Below are positions 709 through 40,929 of a stretch of 64,000 bases of DNA, piece after piece. The notes beneath the pieces are model-generated. The model was not told where the DNA came from, made no database searches, and saw only the letters and a list, made by a program, of their open reading frames with translations. Both the position numbers and the translations under genes were made by a program. Each line of letters starts with the position of its first letter. Within the stretch, counting starts at the first letter, position 1. The stretch is from Cellulomonas fengjieae (GTDB lineage Bacteria > Actinomycetota > Actinomycetes > Actinomycetales > Cellulomonadaceae), in assembly GCF_018388465.1 (NCBI RefSeq), contig NZ_CP074404.1, forward strand, positions 3,162,001 through 3,226,000. The letters run 5' to 3'.

Positions 709-1284
709 ATGGCCGTGGAGGTACTGCCCGCACTCGGACGCTACGACGACTTCTTCGAGGTCGTCGGGGTCAAGAAGCCCGGCGGCGGGGGCTGCTGGTG
801 CATGGCGTACCGGGACAGCCGGGTGCCGAACGACGCCCGGGGCGCGTACATGCGTGACGAGTGCGCCACGGCGCCCGGACCGGGCGTGCTGGCGTTCGTG
901 GACGGCGTGGTCGCGGGCTGGTGCTCGGTCGCCCCTCGCAGCACCTACCGCCGGCTGATGCGCTCCCGGACCATCCCGTTCGTCGACGAGCGGGACCCGT
1001 GGAGCATCGTCTGCTTCGTCGTGCGACCGGCGTTCCGGCGTCGCGGGCTGATGCACGAGCTGCTCGAGGGTGCGGTCGCGCACGCCGCCACGAACGGCGC
1101 CGAGGTGGTGGAGGGCTACCCCGTCGAGATCGACGGCGGTGACCGGGTCGAACTCGGCTCGGGGTACGTGGGCACCGCCCGGCTGTTCGAGTCGGCGGGC
1201 TTCACCAGGGCCGCGGCCACGACGGGCCACAGCGGCGGCCGACCGCGCGTGGTCATGCGCAAGGAGCTCTCGAGCGGGCGCTGA
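709..1284 (+). CDS. GNAT-family N-acetyltransferase
   Basis: This 191-residue protein is a GNAT acetyltransferase. The acetyl-CoA pyrophosphate-binding motif is FVVRPAFRRRGLMHELL, followed by an alpha/beta segment and FESAGFTR, the usual C-terminal motif. An unusual Gly/Cys-rich stretch near the N-terminus (PGGGGCWCMAYRD) resembles a GNAT subgroup that keeps paired cysteines near the active site. I chose ATG 709 because it follows a TAGCCT-like -10 element closely, suggesting a leaderless or very short leader; an in-frame GTG at 685 would add eight residues. The substrate cannot be read from the sequence. It stands alone between two unrelated genes. Confidence 0.8.
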   Translation: MAVEVLPALGRYDDFFEVVGVKKPGGGGCWCMAYRDSRVPNDARGAYMRDECATAPGPGVLAFVDGVVAGWCSVAPRSTYRRLMRSRTIPFVDERDPWSIVCFVVRPAFRRRGLMHELLEGAVAHAATNGAEVVEGYPVEIDGGDRVELGSGYVGTARLFESAGFTRAAATTGHSGGRPRVVMRKELSSGR

Positions 1285-1439: not shown

Positions 1440-3089
1440 ATGTCCTCCCTCGCACCACATCGACGCCGCGTCCTCGCGGCGACCGCCGGACTCGCGGCGA
1501 CCGCTCTCGTGCTGACCGCCTGCTCGGGCACCGACGACGAGGGCGGCGCCGACGGCGGCGACAGCGGCTCCGGCACCTCGCTCACCATCGGCACCACGGA
1601 CAAGGTCACCTCGCTCGACCCGGCGGGCTCGTACGACAACGGCTCGTTCGCCGTGCAGAACCAGGTGTTCCCGTTCCTCATGAACACCCCCTACGGCAGC
1701 CCGGACGTCGAGCCCGACATCGCGGTCTCCGCTGAGTTCACGGCACCCACCGAGTACACGGTCACGCTCAAGCCCGACCTGAAGTGGGCCAACGGCCACG
1801 ACCTGACGGCCTCGGACGTGAAGTTCACGTTCGACCGCCAGCTCGCGATCGCGGACGAGAACGGGCCGTCCTCGCTGCTCTACAACCTGGAGAGCACCGA
1901 GGTGGTCGACGACACCACCGTCGTGTTCCACCTGAAGTCCGAGAACGACCAGATCTTCCCGCAGATCCTGTCCAGCCCCGCGGGCCCGATCGTCGACGAG
2001 GAGGTCATGTCGGCCGACTCGCTGACCCCGGACAACGAGATCGTCGACGCGAACGCGTTCGCGGGCCAGTACGTCATCACCAGCTACGCGTTCAACGAGC
2101 TGGTCTCCTACGAGGCGTACGACGACTACGCGGGCGTGCTGCCGGCGGCCAAGACCTCCGAGGTCAACGTCAAGTACTACGCCGACTCGTCGAACCTCAA
2201 GCTGGACATCCAGGAGGGCAACATCGACGTGGCGTTCCGCAGCCTCTCGGCGACGGACGTCGCCGACCTGGCCACGGACGACAACGTCAAGGTCGTCGAC
2301 GGTCCCGGCGGGGAGATCCGCTACATCGTCTTCAACTTCGACACGCAGCCGTTCGGAGCCAAGGCCGACGGCGCGGACCCGGCCAAGGCCCTCGCGGTCC
2401 GCCAGGCGGTCGCCCACCTGATCGACCGGGAGCCGCTGTCGGAGCAGGTCTACAAGGGCACCTACACGCCCCTGTACTCCTACGTGCCGGACGGCCTGAC
2501 GGGTGCGACCGAGTCGCTCAAGGGCATGTACGGCGACGGCGACGGCGGTCCCGACGCCGCCAAGGCCAAGGCGGCGCTCGAGGCCGCGGGCGTCACGACC
2601 CCGGTCGCGCTGAGCCTGCAGTACTCGAACGACCACTACGGTCCCTCGTCGGCCGACGAGTACGCCCTCATCAAGGACCAGCTGGAGAAGGACGGCCTGT
2701 TCGCGGTCGACCTGCAGACCACCGAGTGGGTCCAGTACTCCAAGGACCGCACGTCGGACGTCTACCCGTCCTACCAGCTCGGCTGGTTCCCGGACTACTC
2801 CGACGCCGACAACTACCTCACGCCGTTCTTCCTCACGGAGAACTTCCTGTCCAACCACTACGCCAACCAGGCGGTCAACGACATGATCCTGGAGCAGGCG
2901 ACGACGGCCGACGCCGACGCCCGCACCGCGCTCCTCGAGGGCATCCAGGACGCCGTGGCCGCGGACCTCTCGACGGTGCCGTACCTGCAGGGCGCCCAGG
3001 TGGCGGTCGTGGGCACGGACGTGACGGGCACCGAGGACACCCTCGACGCGTCGTTCAAGTTCCGCTACGGCGCACTCGCCACGAGCTGA
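1440..3089 (+). CDS. ABC transporter substrate-binding lipoprotein (family 5, DppA/OppA type)
   Basis: This 549-residue lipoprotein captures substrate for the downstream permeases. It starts with an Arg-rich N-terminus, a hydrophobic core and a lipobox LTAC with Cys28 as the lipidated residue. The mature part has family-5 (SBP_bac_5) features: DKVTSLDPAGSYDNG near the start, YTVTLKPDLKWANGHDLTASDVKFTFDR (quoted across a break), and a long C-terminal lobe. An AGAAGAGG ribosome binding site precedes ATG 1440. The family binds peptides, but several members, notably in Thermotoga, bind oligosaccharides. Because a GH42 beta-galactosidase follows the transporter, a beta-galactoside or other oligosaccharide ligand is a reasonable inference; peptides remain possible. 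Confidence 0.9.
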   Translation: MSSLAPHRRRVLAATAGLAATALVLTACSGTDDEGGADGGDSGSGTSLTIGTTDKVTSLDPAGSYDNGSFAVQNQVFPFLMNTPYGSPDVEPDIAVSAEFTAPTEYTVTLKPDLKWANGHDLTASDVKFTFDRQLAIADENGPSSLLYNLESTEVVDDTTVVFHLKSENDQIFPQILSSPAGPIVDEEVMSADSLTPDNEIVDANAFAGQYVITSYAFNELVSYEAYDDYAGVLPAAKTSEVNVKYYADSSNLKLDIQEGNIDVAFRSLSATDVADLATDDNVKVVDGPGGEIRYIVFNFDTQPFGAKADGADPAKALAVRQAVAHLIDREPLSEQVYKGTYTPLYSYVPDGLTGATESLKGMYGDGDGGPDAAKAKAALEAAGVTTPVALSLQYSNDHYGPSSADEYALIKDQLEKDGLFAVDLQTTEWVQYSKDRTSDVYPSYQLGWFPDYSDADNYLTPFFLTENFLSNHYANQAVNDMILEQATTADADARTALLEGIQDAVAADLSTVPYLQGAQVAVVGTDVTGTEDTLDASFKFRYGALATS

Positions 3090-37463: not shown

Positions 37464-38858
37464 TCAGTCGTCCAGGGCCGGGCCGCAGGCGGCTGCCGCG
37501 GTGGCCGCCAGGCGGTCGAGGCCGTGCACCGCGAGCAGCGGGCGGGTGTCGTCGACGACCGCCCAGCAGCCGTCCACCACCTCGTACCGGACCGCCGGAC
37601 CGGTCGCCAGGTACGCGGTCAGCGCGGTGACCAGGCGGTCGACCGCCTCGCTCGTGGTGCCCACGCCCACCGACGCGCGGATCGCCCCACCCGTGGCCCC
37701 GAGGTGCGCGAGCAACGGGTGCGCGCAGAAGCGGCCGTCACGCACCCCGATGCCGTGCTCGGCCGCCAGGAATGCGGCGACCAGGCCCGGGTCGTGACCC
37801 GGCACGGTGAAGGTGAGCACGCCGACGGGTGCGTCGGAGTCCGGCCAGATCCGCGCGACCTCGACGCCGTCGATCCCCGACAGCCCCGCGACCAGGCGCG
37901 CGCGGAGCGCCTCCTCGTGCGCGGCGAGCGCACCGGCCGGCAGGGCCGCCAGCCGGTCGCACGCCTCCGCGAGCGCGATCGCCCCGATCACGTTGGGCGA
38001 CCCGGCCTCGTGCCGCGCCGGCGCCGGCTGCCACACCGTCCGATCGGCCCGCACGTCGCGCACCGCACCTCCCCCTGCGAGGTACGGCGTGCCCGTGTCG
38101 AGCCAGTCGCGGCGGCCGACGAGGGCCCCCGCGCCGAACGGTGCGTAGGTCTTGTGGCCCGAGAACGCGACGTAGTCGACGTCGGTCTGCGCCAGGGAGA
38201 AGCCGCGGTGCGGCACCAGCTGGGCGCCGTCGACGGCCACCCGTGTACCGGCGGCGTGGGCGAGCGCGACCACCCGGTCGATCGGCAGCGCCTCGCCCGT
38301 GACGTTCGAGGCGCCGGTGATCGTCAGCAGCGCGTACGGCAGGCGGGCGAGCTCGCTCCCCAGGGCGACGAGCGTGCCGGCCACCGTGTCCTTGATGGGC
38401 AGGATCGTCGTGCGGTTGCCGTGCCGCTCGGACGACTGCACCCAGGGCAGCAGGTTGGCGTGGTGCTCGGCGTCCAGCACCAGGACGCGACCGCCGTCCG
38501 GCACCACCCCGGCCAGCAGGTTGAGCGAGTCGGTGGTGTTGCGCGTGACGATGGCGACGTCGTCGGGACGCGCGTCCACGAACCGCGCGATCGTCTCGCG
38601 CGCCGACTCGTAGAGCGCGGTCGACACCTGGGACAGGTACCCGGCCCCGCGGTGCACGGACGCGTACAGCGGGAGCACCTCGGTCACGCGGGCTGCGACG
38701 GCCTCCAGCGCGGGCGCGCTCGCGGCGTAGTCGAGGTTCGCGTAGACGCGGTGGGTGCCGTCCACGAGCGGGACGGTGGTGGCTCCCCCGACCACGGGCA
38801 GCAGGGCGCTCACCTCGTCGGTGGGGGTGCGCGTGAGTCGCTCGGCGATGACGGACAT
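37464..38858 (-). CDS. Class-V PLP aminotransferase (cysteine desulfurase-like)
   Basis: A 464-residue fold-type-I PLP enzyme. The PLP lysine is in FSGHKTYAPFGAG, with TITGASNVTGEALP and RVAVDGAQLVPHRGF as conserved cofactor contacts. The N-terminus NLDYAASAPALEAV resembles SufS/CsdA, and the candidate sulfur Cys lies in GRFCAHPLL. It is about 50 residues longer than SufS, with a C-terminal tail ending ACGPALDD. ATG 38858 has GGAGG 7 nt upstream. Its leader is a SAM-IV riboswitch, linking it to methionine/SAM-controlled sulfur metabolism. No suf genes are adjacent, so an Fe-S assembly role is not implied. Confidence 0.88.
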   Translation of the reverse strand: MSVIAERLTRTPTDEVSALLPVVGGATTVPLVDGTHRVYANLDYAASAPALEAVAARVTEVLPLYASVHRGAGYLSQVSTALYESARETIARFVDARPDDVAIVTRNTTDSLNLLAGVVPDGGRVLVLDAEHHANLLPWVQSSERHGNRTTILPIKDTVAGTLVALGSELARLPYALLTITGASNVTGEALPIDRVVALAHAAGTRVAVDGAQLVPHRGFSLAQTDVDYVAFSGHKTYAPFGAGALVGRRDWLDTGTPYLAGGGAVRDVRADRTVWQPAPARHEAGSPNVIGAIALAEACDRLAALPAGALAAHEEALRARLVAGLSGIDGVEVARIWPDSDAPVGVLTFTVPGHDPGLVAAFLAAEHGIGVRDGRFCAHPLLAHLGATGGAIRASVGVGTTSEAVDRLVTALTAYLATGPAVRYEVVDGCWAVVDDTRPLLAVHGLDRLAATAAAACGPALDD

Positions 38859-38935
38859 GGTGGGTCCTCCGACAGATCCGGGGGAACACCAGGTGTGGTG
38901 GGACCCCGCGCTTGCCGGCCCCGGACGGGGCACGG

Positions 38936-39019
38936 CCAGGTCGTCACCCGGGGCACCCCACCGCGGAGGAGGGTTGCCGGCCAGCGAGCCGGGGCTTGAC
39001 GCTGGCGCTCATGACCTGG
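38936..39019 (-). promoter_or_regulatory. SAM-IV riboswitch aptamer in the aminotransferase leader
   Basis: Read on the minus strand, CCAGGTC (39019-39013 region) pairs with GACCTGG (38942-38936) as P1. The interior contains GAGCGCCAGCGTCAAGCCCC, the complementary CGCTGG, GGCTCGCTGGCCGGCAACCC and GGTGGGGTGCCCCGGGTGA, in the order and wording of the SAM-IV consensus from Actinomycetales. Downstream, GGGGTCC near 38905 can pair with GGACCC (38867-38862) that covers part of the aminotransferase ribosome binding site, so control is probably translational. TTGACA at 39053-39048 (minus) is a consensus -35 at the right distance. Confidence 0.9.
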
Positions 39020-39099
39020 GTCGAGCCTCCCGGCACCGTCGGCGACCTGTCAACGAGGCTCGGCCGTCGTCTCGCCAGCCGGGACGGCTTGTCCACCAC

Positions 39100-39129
39100 T
39101 TGGAAGGCGGTCCCCGCCGCGCGTAGCAT
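39100..39129 (+). promoter_or_regulatory. Promoter of the SAM-I controlled rhodanese-metZ operon
   Basis: TTGGAA (39100-39105) and TAGCAT (39124-39129) with an 18-nt spacer. The predicted start, about 39136, falls at the first base pairs of the S-box aptamer. Confidence 0.65.
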
Positions 39130-39137
39130 CGCCGCAC

Positions 39138-39230
39138 CATCCAGAGCGGCCGAGAGATCTGGCTCGACGACGCCGCAGCAACCCGCGGGCACCACGTGCC
39201 CGGTGCAGGGTGCTACCGCCAGGACCGATG
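39138..39230 (+). promoter_or_regulatory. SAM-I (S-box) riboswitch aptamer in the rhodanese leader
   Basis: CATC (39138-39141) pairs with GATG (39227-39230) as the end of P1. Conserved S-box segments follow in order: CCAGAGCGGCCGAGAGATCTG, then ACGACGCCGCAGCAACCC (P2 and pseudoknot partner), a hairpin GGGCACCACGTGCCC, and GGTGCTACCGCC, ending GATGAGACGAGG. The last bases are the ribosome binding site of the rhodanese gene, 15 nt after the aptamer, so SAM binding probably hides the site. The first segment is quoted at one base over the usual core for context. Confidence 0.9.
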
Positions 39231-39244
39231 AGACGAGGCTTTCC

Positions 39245-39658
39245 ATGAGCTACGCCGGTGACCTGACCCCCGAGCAGGCCTGGGACCTGTTGACGTCCGA
39301 CGAGAACGCCGTCCTCGTCGACGTGCGGACCGACGCCGAGTGGCGCTACGTCGGCATCCCCGACGCCGGGCCGATCGACGGGCGGGCAGCGCTCGTCGAG
39401 TGGGTGTCGTACCCGAGCGGCCGGCCCAACCCGCGGTTCCTCGACCAGCTCGCCGACGCGGGTGTCACGGCCGGCCGACCCGTCGTGTTCCTGTGCCGCT
39501 CGGGCGTGCGCTCGATCGCGGCCGCGCAGGCGGCGACCGCTGCGGGCCTCGGTCCGGCGTACAACGTCCTGCACGGCTTCGAGGGCGACGTCGGACCCGA
39601 CGGCCACCGCGGACACGAGGGTTGGCGCGCGGCCGGCCTGCCCTGGCGGCAGGTGTGA
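39245..39658 (+). CDS. Rhodanese-like sulfurtransferase
   Basis: A 137-residue single-domain rhodanese. NAVLVDVRTDAEWRYVGIPD is the CH2A-type motif, and the catalytic Cys sits in the loop FLCRSGVRSIAAA. It would carry a persulfide. The ATG follows the SAM-I aptamer directly, and its stop overlaps the metZ start by 4 nt, so it is coupled to the sulfhydrylase. Rhodanese-metZ pairs are recurrent in Actinobacteria and Proteobacteria, suggesting sulfur delivery or detoxification around homocysteine synthesis; the exact donor is unknown. Confidence 0.92.
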   Translation: MSYAGDLTPEQAWDLLTSDENAVLVDVRTDAEWRYVGIPDAGPIDGRAALVEWVSYPSGRPNPRFLDQLADAGVTAGRPVVFLCRSGVRSIAAAQAATAAGLGPAYNVLHGFEGDVGPDGHRGHEGWRAAGLPWRQV

Positions 39659-40929
39659 GCCCGGCAGGTGCGAGCGGTCGGCGCGTCCCCGGCCCGGCCG
39701 ACTGGGACGACCGCCGCAGCCCGCACGACCAGCTGCGCCCCGACACGCTCGCCGTGCGCGGCGGGCTCGTGCGCTCGCAGTTCAACGAGACGTCCGAGGC
39801 GCTGTTCCTCACGCAGGGCTACGTGTACGACACGGCCGCCGAGGCCGAGGCCGCCTTCGCCGGCCAGGCGGACCGGTTCCTGTACTCCCGCTACGGCAAC
39901 CCGACCGTGTCCACCTTCGAGGAGCGCCTGAGGCTGCTCGAGGGCGCCGAGGCGGCGTACGCGACCGCCACCGGCATGTCGGCGGTGTTCACCTCGCTCG
40001 CGGCCCTCGTGCAGTCGGGATCGCGGATCGTGTCCGCGCGGGCGCTGTTCGGGTCCACCGTCGTGATCTTCGAGGAGATCCTGGCCAAGTGGGGTGTGAC
40101 CACCGACTACGTCGACGGACACGAGCTGGCGCAGTGGCAGGAGGCGCTGGCGACGCCCGCGGACGTCGTGTTCTTCGAGACGCCGTCCAACCCGATGCAG
40201 GACCTGGTCGACGTCGCGGCCGTCAGTCGGCTCGCGCACGCGGCGGGCGCGACGGTGGTCGTCGACAACGTCTTCGCGACACCGGTGCTGTCCCGCCCGC
40301 TGGAGCTGGGCGCCGACGTGGTCGTGTACTCGGCCACCAAGCACATCGACGGGCAGGGCCGCGTGCTCGGCGGCGCGATCCTGGGCAGCGACGAGTACAT
40401 CCACGGGCCCGTCCAGACGCTCATCCGCAACACGGGTCCGTCGCTGTCGGCCTTCAACGCGTGGGTGCTGCTCAAGGGCCTGGAGACGCTCTCCCTGCGG
40501 GTGCGCCACCAGACCGCGTCGGCCCTGCGGGTGGCGACCTGGCTGGAGCAGCAGCCCGGCGTCGCGCTCGTCCGCTACCCGTACCTGCCCTCGCACCCGC
40601 AGCACGCGCTCGCGCTCGCGCAGCAGTCCGGTGGCGGCACGGTGGTCACGTTCAACCTGGTGGTGCCGGACGACGCGACGGCCGACGTCGCCAAGAAGGT
40701 CACCTTCGGCGTGCTCGACGCCCTGCGGGTCGTCGACATCTCCAACAACCTGGGCGACGCCAAGTCGCTGGTCACCCACCCCGCCACGACGACGCACCGC
40801 AAGCTCGGTCCCGACGGCCGCGCGGCGGTCGGCATCGGCGAGTCCACGGTCCGGCTGTCGGTGGGCCTCGAGGACCCCGCCGACCTGATCGAGGACCTCG
40901 CGCAGGCGCTCGACACGCTCTCGGACTGA
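39655..40929 (+). CDS. metZ: O-succinylhomoserine (or O-acetylhomoserine) sulfhydrylase
   Basis: A 424-residue Cys/Met-metabolism PLP enzyme that forms homocysteine from an activated homoserine and sulfide. Key motifs are QGYVYDTAAEAEAAFAG, the RYGNPTV motif (SRYGNPTVSTFEERL), PSNPMQDLVDVAA, and the PLP lysine in YSATKHIDGQGR; the stretch GRVLGGAILG favours MetZ over cystathionine gamma-synthase. GTG 39655 overlaps the rhodanese stop. It lies under the SAM-I riboswitch, as expected for a methionine-pathway enzyme. Succinyl or acetyl preference is not decided by sequence. Confidence 0.93.
   Translation: MSPAGASGRRVPGPADWDDRRSPHDQLRPDTLAVRGGLVRSQFNETSEALFLTQGYVYDTAAEAEAAFAGQADRFLYSRYGNPTVSTFEERLRLLEGAEAAYATATGMSAVFTSLAALVQSGSRIVSARALFGSTVVIFEEILAKWGVTTDYVDGHELAQWQEALATPADVVFFETPSNPMQDLVDVAAVSRLAHAAGATVVVDNVFATPVLSRPLELGADVVVYSATKHIDGQGRVLGGAILGSDEYIHGPVQTLIRNTGPSLSAFNAWVLLKGLETLSLRVRHQTASALRVATWLEQQPGVALVRYPYLPSHPQHALALAQQSGGGTVVTFNLVVPDDATADVAKKVTFGVLDALRVVDISNNLGDAKSLVTHPATTTHRKLGPDGRAAVGIGESTVRLSVGLEDPADLIEDLAQALDTLSD

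Follow-up and report, generated by a model that had tools for sequence, protein, structure and literature searches.

The window analysed here, a stretch of 64,000 nucleotides from the genome of Cellulomonas fengjieae (3.99 Mb, one contig), contains a gap of 386 nucleotides (38859..39244) from which two sets of sulfur genes are read in opposite directions. On the minus strand lies a SufS-like (cysteine-desulfurase-like) class V aminotransferase (37464..38858; PF00266), with SGHK lysine and FCAHP cysteine motifs. Its best NCBIfam model is TIGR01979, at 280.7 bits against a curated cut-off of 475.1, such that the protein falls outside SufS by that measure with both its Lys and Cys motifs in place; it is possible, despite this sub-cut-off score, that the enzyme works like SufS, and the closest solved structures are mostly named cysteine desulfurases. 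On the plus strand, a rhodanese-like sulfurtransferase (39245..39658; PF00581, 41.5 bits, cut-off 22.2) is followed by metZ, for O-succinylhomoserine sulfhydrylase (39655..40929; NF005870 at 726.6 bits and TIGR01325 at 596 bits, both above cut-off). These profile matches bear out the two divergent sulfur operons proposed in a preliminary description of this DNA, and we infer a sulfur route that would run from cysteine, through a persulfide and the rhodanese, to homocysteine by way of MetZ. In six-frame translations of 80 relative loci (the best 80 of 157 found with the minus-strand protein, including Cellulomonas, Oerskovia, Cellulosimicrobium, Sanguibacter, Isoptericola, Timonella and others), the SGHK lysine and R-x-G-x-x-C-A-x-P cysteine motifs are both present in 80/80, and the rhodanese-type C-x-S-G-x-R-S loop in 77/80, being absent from L055, L057 and L074.

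Each arm of the gap carries a SAM aptamer. The preliminary description had placed a SAM-IV aptamer on the minus strand and a SAM-I (S-box) aptamer on the plus strand, and a search of both strands of the window with cmscan (Rfam, gathering thresholds) recovers both families above cut-off. The SAM-IV match (RF00634; 38903..39016, minus strand) scores 105.8 bits against a cut-off of 38 and is full length (model positions 1-116 of 116), with P5 and the 3′ strand of PK-2 included; as read from the sequence, P1 pairs 39016-39013 with 38942-38939 and the PK-2 3′ strand, CGCGG, falls within 38911-38906. Its 3′ end lies 44 nt ahead of the minus-strand start codon. The SAM-I match (RF00162; 39134..39234, plus strand) is also full length, but at 46.5 bits clears its cut-off of 44.4 by only 2.1 bits, and ends 10 nt ahead of the rhodanese ATG at 39245. 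Elsewhere in the genome, one more SAM-I exceeds its cut-off, at 52.7 bits; it precedes a metF-like gene, which with 251.4 bits falls short of the 293.7 required by TIGR00676, and the start of metE. No further SAM-IV was found above cut-off, the next best scoring 26.2 bits.

By its core, the plus-strand RNA is an S-box variant and not a textbook SAM-I: it keeps the K-turn in P2, PK-1, P3 and the conserved nucleotides of the pocket, and is without the P4 helix. In the window copy, P1 has only four pairs (39138-39141 with 39227-39230), P2a pairs 39146-39150 with 39172-39176, all four pairs of PK-1 are intact (CTGG, 39159-39162, with CCAG, 39219-39222), and a linker, GACC (39223-39226), stands in place of P4. 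A K-turn, with its 3-nt bulge and tandem GA, can be recognised in the S-box alignment and, with positions mapped by eye on T. tengcongensis numbering, 22 of the 23 highly conserved SAM-I positions listed in an excerpt of PMC3764141 are present, U4 being a C.

The marginal SAM-I call is, at the level of sequence comparison, secured by the relatives. A covariance model of our own for the P4-less S-box (R1), built from 51 copies with the window copy among them, gives that copy 95 bits. Across the 51 copies 98.8% of cells are paired, against 29.6-54.8% in slid registers, and in 38 cells both partners have changed, where shuffles average 6.1; these changes are located in P2a, P2b, PK-1 and one P3 pair. 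Further pair types numbered 14, which is not above shuffles (12.2; reached by 82/500 of them). There is little variation in P1; of the 51 copies, 4 do not form the outermost PK-1 pair and 8 do not form one P3 pair.

In all 79 matched copies (77 from the relative loci, together with that of the window and the one before metF) the gap between PK-1 and the 3′ strand of P1 is 3-5 nt, a spacing at which helix P4 cannot form, although the pattern allowed linkers of 0-8 nt and P4-bearing copies were therefore beyond its reach. The loci without a match to this pattern are only three of the 80 (L055, L057 and L067); none has an Rfam SAM-I hit, and none has a rhodanese or metZ in the fetched stretch. 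Across the order (149 genomes), 28 of the 30 best-scoring SAM-I loci are P4-less and two (L115, L118) have P4, as judged by eye. Elsewhere in the phylum, SAM-I matches that score higher with RF00162 than with R1 are common, and we confine the claim of a P4-less form to the order. Phylum-wide, RF00162 is above cut-off in 192/396 genomes and R1 matched 159/396. We had considered that Rfam might miss whole genomes with P4-less RNAs; this was ruled out, both models having found 74/149 genomes of the order, and only single loci fall short of the cut-off (22/80). An identity as SAM-I/IV was likewise ruled out, with no RF01725 match in the genome at E<=10. RF00634 does not match the plus-strand RNA, whose P3 loops differ in length and sequence among the copies with no constant partner (PK-2) seen by eye. 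As a separate observation, three loci elsewhere in the phylum (L157, L163, L173) have P4-less S-box-like RNAs in which the P3 closing pair appears, by eye, to be inverted (CACCAACC...GGTGGT as against the usual GGCAACC...GGTGCC).

Comparison of the gap across relatives, as envisaged in the preliminary description, places a SAM-IV upstream of the desulfurase-like gene in 80/80 loci; SAM-I is above the Rfam cut-off in 58/80, and the motif is present in 19 of the remaining 22, making 77/80 in total. The distance from P1 to P1, measurable in 70 loci (in seven others the script's SAM-IV pattern had no match), is below 200 bp in 57 and 322-1136 bp in 13; 33 of the 57 close pairs stand at 121-124 bp, the window at 121. 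Two known riboswitch families, one of which is reduced in form, stand here in an arrangement that is real and conserved; the counts indicate conservation and not independent origins, because the loci are relatives chosen by one of the two genes. Some loci have features of their own. In L047, L049 and L050 the SAM-IV scores drop to 71.6-75.3 bits, and the facing SAM-I has a compensated PK-1 (CCGG/CCGG). L057 has two very similar SAM-IV copies (717-830, minus strand; 2739-2852, plus strand), one before the desulfurase-like gene and the other before a cysteine dioxygenase gene (PF05995); this looks like the local duplication of a riboswitch. The copies are separated by about 2 kb, which rules out the reading that a single gap of L057 has SAM-IV on each side.

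That each aptamer has its own promoter, as had been supposed, agrees with the spacer sequences. On the plus strand a -10 element, TAGCAT (39124..39129), puts the predicted start at about the first bases of P1, near 39136, and TANNNT lies 7-9 nt upstream of the CCATC of SAM-I P1 in 75/79 copies (shuffled mean 2.6, maximum 8), such that the S-box transcript should start at P1. The putative -35, TTGGAA (39100..39105), is read from the sequence and is not clearly conserved. On the minus strand a -35, TTGACA (39048..39053), has its equivalent upstream of SAM-IV in 47/58 spacers; the predicted start on this strand is near 39018.

At its other end, the 3′ strand of the S-box P1 (GATG) runs directly into GGAGG in 70/79 copies. 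The window copy and its near relatives L008, L010 and L058 have lost this contiguity; in the window the Shine-Dalgarno, GAGG (39235..39238), begins 4 nt after the P1 3′ strand. Occlusion of the Shine-Dalgarno by P1 was not obtained in a nearest-neighbour fold of the window leader, its accessibility being 0.37 with P1 forced and 0.29 in the free fold, in which P1 did not form. According to an excerpt of PMC2258182, the 3′ strand of P1 in SAM-I aptamers can contain the ribosome binding site, a direct mode of control often found in Actinobacteria. The rhodanese start codon lies 14 nt past P1 in the window. This is within the footprint of a 30S subunit, so P1 may still act as a steric block, and of the earlier suggestion that both platforms act on the ribosome binding site the SAM-I half is plausible from geometry.

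The displaced Shine-Dalgarno might be read differently, as a sign that the window's S-box is drifting, with a shortened P1 and with regulation weak or lost. The loss of contiguity in the four copies fits this, as does the small margin over the Rfam cut-off, and two relatives, L040 and L048, score lower than the window's 46.5 bits; but the intact PK-1, the 22 of 23 conserved positions and the score with our own model count against it, and three further genomes share this alteration of the 3′ end, which is therefore maintained. We consider drift unlikely.

For the SAM-IV leader, the other half of that suggestion is unproven. Its expression region (38856..38902, minus strand) holds a C-rich strand, a Shine-Dalgarno, GGAGG, and the start codon (38858-38856). 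The C-rich strand, which follows the PK-2 3′ strand, could pair back to it (CGGGG/CCCCG) and, in some relatives, judged by eye, also with the Shine-Dalgarno. We might guess from this at an anti-Shine-Dalgarno strand that would compete with the PK-2 strand. Tails were obtained from 74/81 leaders, and over the 68 distinct ones an anti-Shine-Dalgarno helix reaches p<=0.05 in 12, against 3.4 expected, with a mean helix of 5.97 pairs against 5.26 in shuffles; the window's own tail gives no signal, its 5-pair helix being reached by 78% of shuffles. A clear statistical signal for such a switch was therefore not obtained, the trend over the 68 tails being weak. Transcription attenuation is an alternative mode for this leader, because in Streptomyces clavuligerus the SAM-IV leader of a gene for a class V aminotransferase (CRV15_21540) yields a premature transcript, as described in an excerpt of PMC8269248; no U-run was seen after a hairpin in the window's SAM-IV leader.

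Between the two promoters lies an inverted repeat, GTCTCGCCAGCCGGGAC (39069..39085; 17 bp, GTCTC-N7-GRGAC), which is likely to be a third control site, a candidate transcription-factor operator for a regulator of sulfur metabolism. With shuffles that ignore the relatedness of the loci, [AG]TCTC[AG] starting 50-55 nt from SAM-IV P1 is found in 45/58 spacers (shuffled mean 0.29, maximum 3), and of 30 loci taken from across the order 15 have the element, in either orientation, at 38-80 nt ahead of SAM-IV (1.9 shuffled, maximum 8); the right half of the repeat is kept in 26/58 spacers. The full pattern occurs in the genome at 13 distinct places (19 strand matches), and the pattern read backwards at one. 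The centre of the repeat is about 60 bp upstream of the predicted start, a spacing that would suit a class I activator. In L068, L072, L074, L077 and L179, GTCTCA occurs a second time, 21 nt off the usual position and near the -35 of the SAM-I promoter; such outer copies belong to Sanguibacter- and Timonella-type loci, and L060 has only the outer one.

It could be supposed from the frequency of this element, both in the spacers and order-wide, that a transcription factor bound there exerts the main control and that the riboswitches only trim. Yet 12 of the 58 spacers have no match to the element at 40-80 nt from SAM-IV P1 and keep both aptamers, and the excess over shuffles is to be read with the relatedness of the loci in mind; we regard a main role for the factor as improbable.

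The distribution of the two classes over genes bears more directly on why both are present. In the fetched stretches around the best-scoring 30 SAM-IV and 30 SAM-I loci of the 149 genomes, SAM-IV leads into homologues of the desulfurase-like gene in 14/30, into another Cys/Met PLP enzyme in 12/30, and into none of our five queries in 4/30. This other enzyme is 32-36% identical to metZ, and in the two of the 12 cases tested (L087, L090) it is an O-acetylhomoserine sulfhydrylase of the metY type, with TIGR01326 over cut-off. SAM-I leads into rhodanese-metZ in 8/30, metF homologues in 5/30, a metZ homologue of 36-39% identity in 3/30 and no query in 14/30. No desulfurase-like gene was found behind SAM-I (0/30), and no rhodanese or metF behind SAM-IV (0/30), in these stretches. 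Co-occurrence of the two classes is common in the order, 63/149 genomes having both (93 SAM-IV, 74 SAM-I; E<=0.001). On this comparison each class keeps to its own genes: SAM-IV goes with the desulfurase-like gene and with metY, SAM-I with rhodanese-metZ and metF. A pair would therefore arise when two genes with leaders of their own become neighbours.

The preliminary description had asked why one class was not used twice, and pointed to differences in affinity or kinetics; inheritance bound to the gene answers this better. That the classes were selected side by side for such differences, for a staged shut-off of the operons, seems to us improbable, for although the pair is kept at similar spacing (the 121-124 bp of most close pairs) and a like combination is evidently stable in four genomes of another family (G078, G048, G120, G106), where SAM-IV with the desulfurase-like gene faces SAM-I with a metF homologue 138-161 bp apart, either class, where its partner is absent, still accompanies the same genes, and inheritance alone explains the pairing.

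Synthesising the aptamers with their covariation and conservation, the promoter and Shine-Dalgarno geometry and the partition of classes between genes, we propose, with a probability of roughly three in four, that the gap carries a pair of ‘OFF’ switches responding to SAM, both from one structural clan and each passed down together with the gene it serves. SAM binding, the ‘OFF’ logic and control of translation are what we infer. High SAM would be read both by the SAM-IV leader of the desulfurase-like gene and by the P4-less S-box of rhodanese-metZ, and the two switches would turn down two arms of the sulfur supply to methionine. On the S-box side nearly the whole leader would be aptamer, transcribed from the 5′ strand of P1; a P1 stabilised by SAM, its 3′ strand adjoining the Shine-Dalgarno, might then hinder 30S binding with no need for a separate platform.

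We speak of one clan advisedly, as the two classes had been described as unrelated, which is wrong, and as independently evolved, which finds no support here: SAM-I and SAM-IV share the Rfam clan CL00012. Model R1, run unfiltered on the gap, has the SAM-IV core as its second-best match (11.7 bits; E 0.0058, 451 bases), end to end and on the correct strand; with filters, over the whole window, the SAM-IV core is not matched. Order-wide, in 27 of the 30 SAM-IV loci (L085-L114, with L091, L096 and L110, from the same genus or family, excluded), R1 scores highest on two SAM-I copies, those of L112 and L113; its following seven matches, at 17.5-13.2 bits, all fall on SAM-IV aptamers, with none on SAM-IV in the other 20 loci. 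These matches point to a likeness of the cores, which common descent and convergence would both fit. A 2014 study of the clan in PNAS, by Trausch, reportedly saw no sign of common descent.

The P4-less S-box has the topology that remains when P4 is taken from SAM-I, or P5 and PK-2 from SAM-IV; the SAM-IV cryo-EM paper, in an excerpt (PMC6890682), describes a common ligand pocket and a SAM-IV without P4 that adds PK-2 with P5. We would tentatively suggest, as a doubtful reading and one less likely than not to hold, that this RNA is a minimal aptamer of the clan, the intermediate by which one member became the other. Were this so, SAM-I and SAM-IV would be related and not convergent, P4 having been lost and a 3′ subdomain gained between them, and the gap would hold both forms of the clan head to head. 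In any case, the locus provides a concrete candidate for the question of a shared SAM-I/SAM-IV origin and draws attention to numerous conserved S-boxes lacking P4. It also lets nature's own pairing of two SAM-clan architectures be compared side by side, within a single cell and pathway. Neither a divergent SAM-I/SAM-IV pair nor a P4-less S-box was found in the literature searched (titles, the starts of abstracts and open-licence PMC text).

Set against known systems, the plus-strand RNA has in common with SAM-I (RF00162) its P1, K-turn P2, PK-1, P3, binding-site nucleotides and position before met genes. It differs from the textbook form in having a linker of 3-5 nt and no P4, a P1 of 4-5 pairs that is nearly fixed as CCAUC/GAUGG, and a predicted start at P1. 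With SAM-IV (RF00634) it shares the order P1-P2-PK-1-P3-PK-1-short linker-P1; SAM-IV, as characterised in the excerpt of PMC6890682, has a 4-nt turn in P2 and an added P5 and PK-2, whereas in the plus-strand RNA the turn is of the 6-nt K-turn type, P5 is absent and no PK-2 was seen by eye. SAM-I/IV (RF01725) is, in the same excerpt, grouped with these SAM riboswitches, whose pocket it shares; lacking PK-1 and having P4, it is there the reverse of the plus-strand RNA. On the minus strand the counterpart is CRV15_21540 of S. clavuligerus, which the excerpt of PMC8269248 describes, with no mention of a divergent SAM-I partner, as likewise a class V aminotransferase gene behind a SAM-IV riboswitch, with a premature transcript reported.
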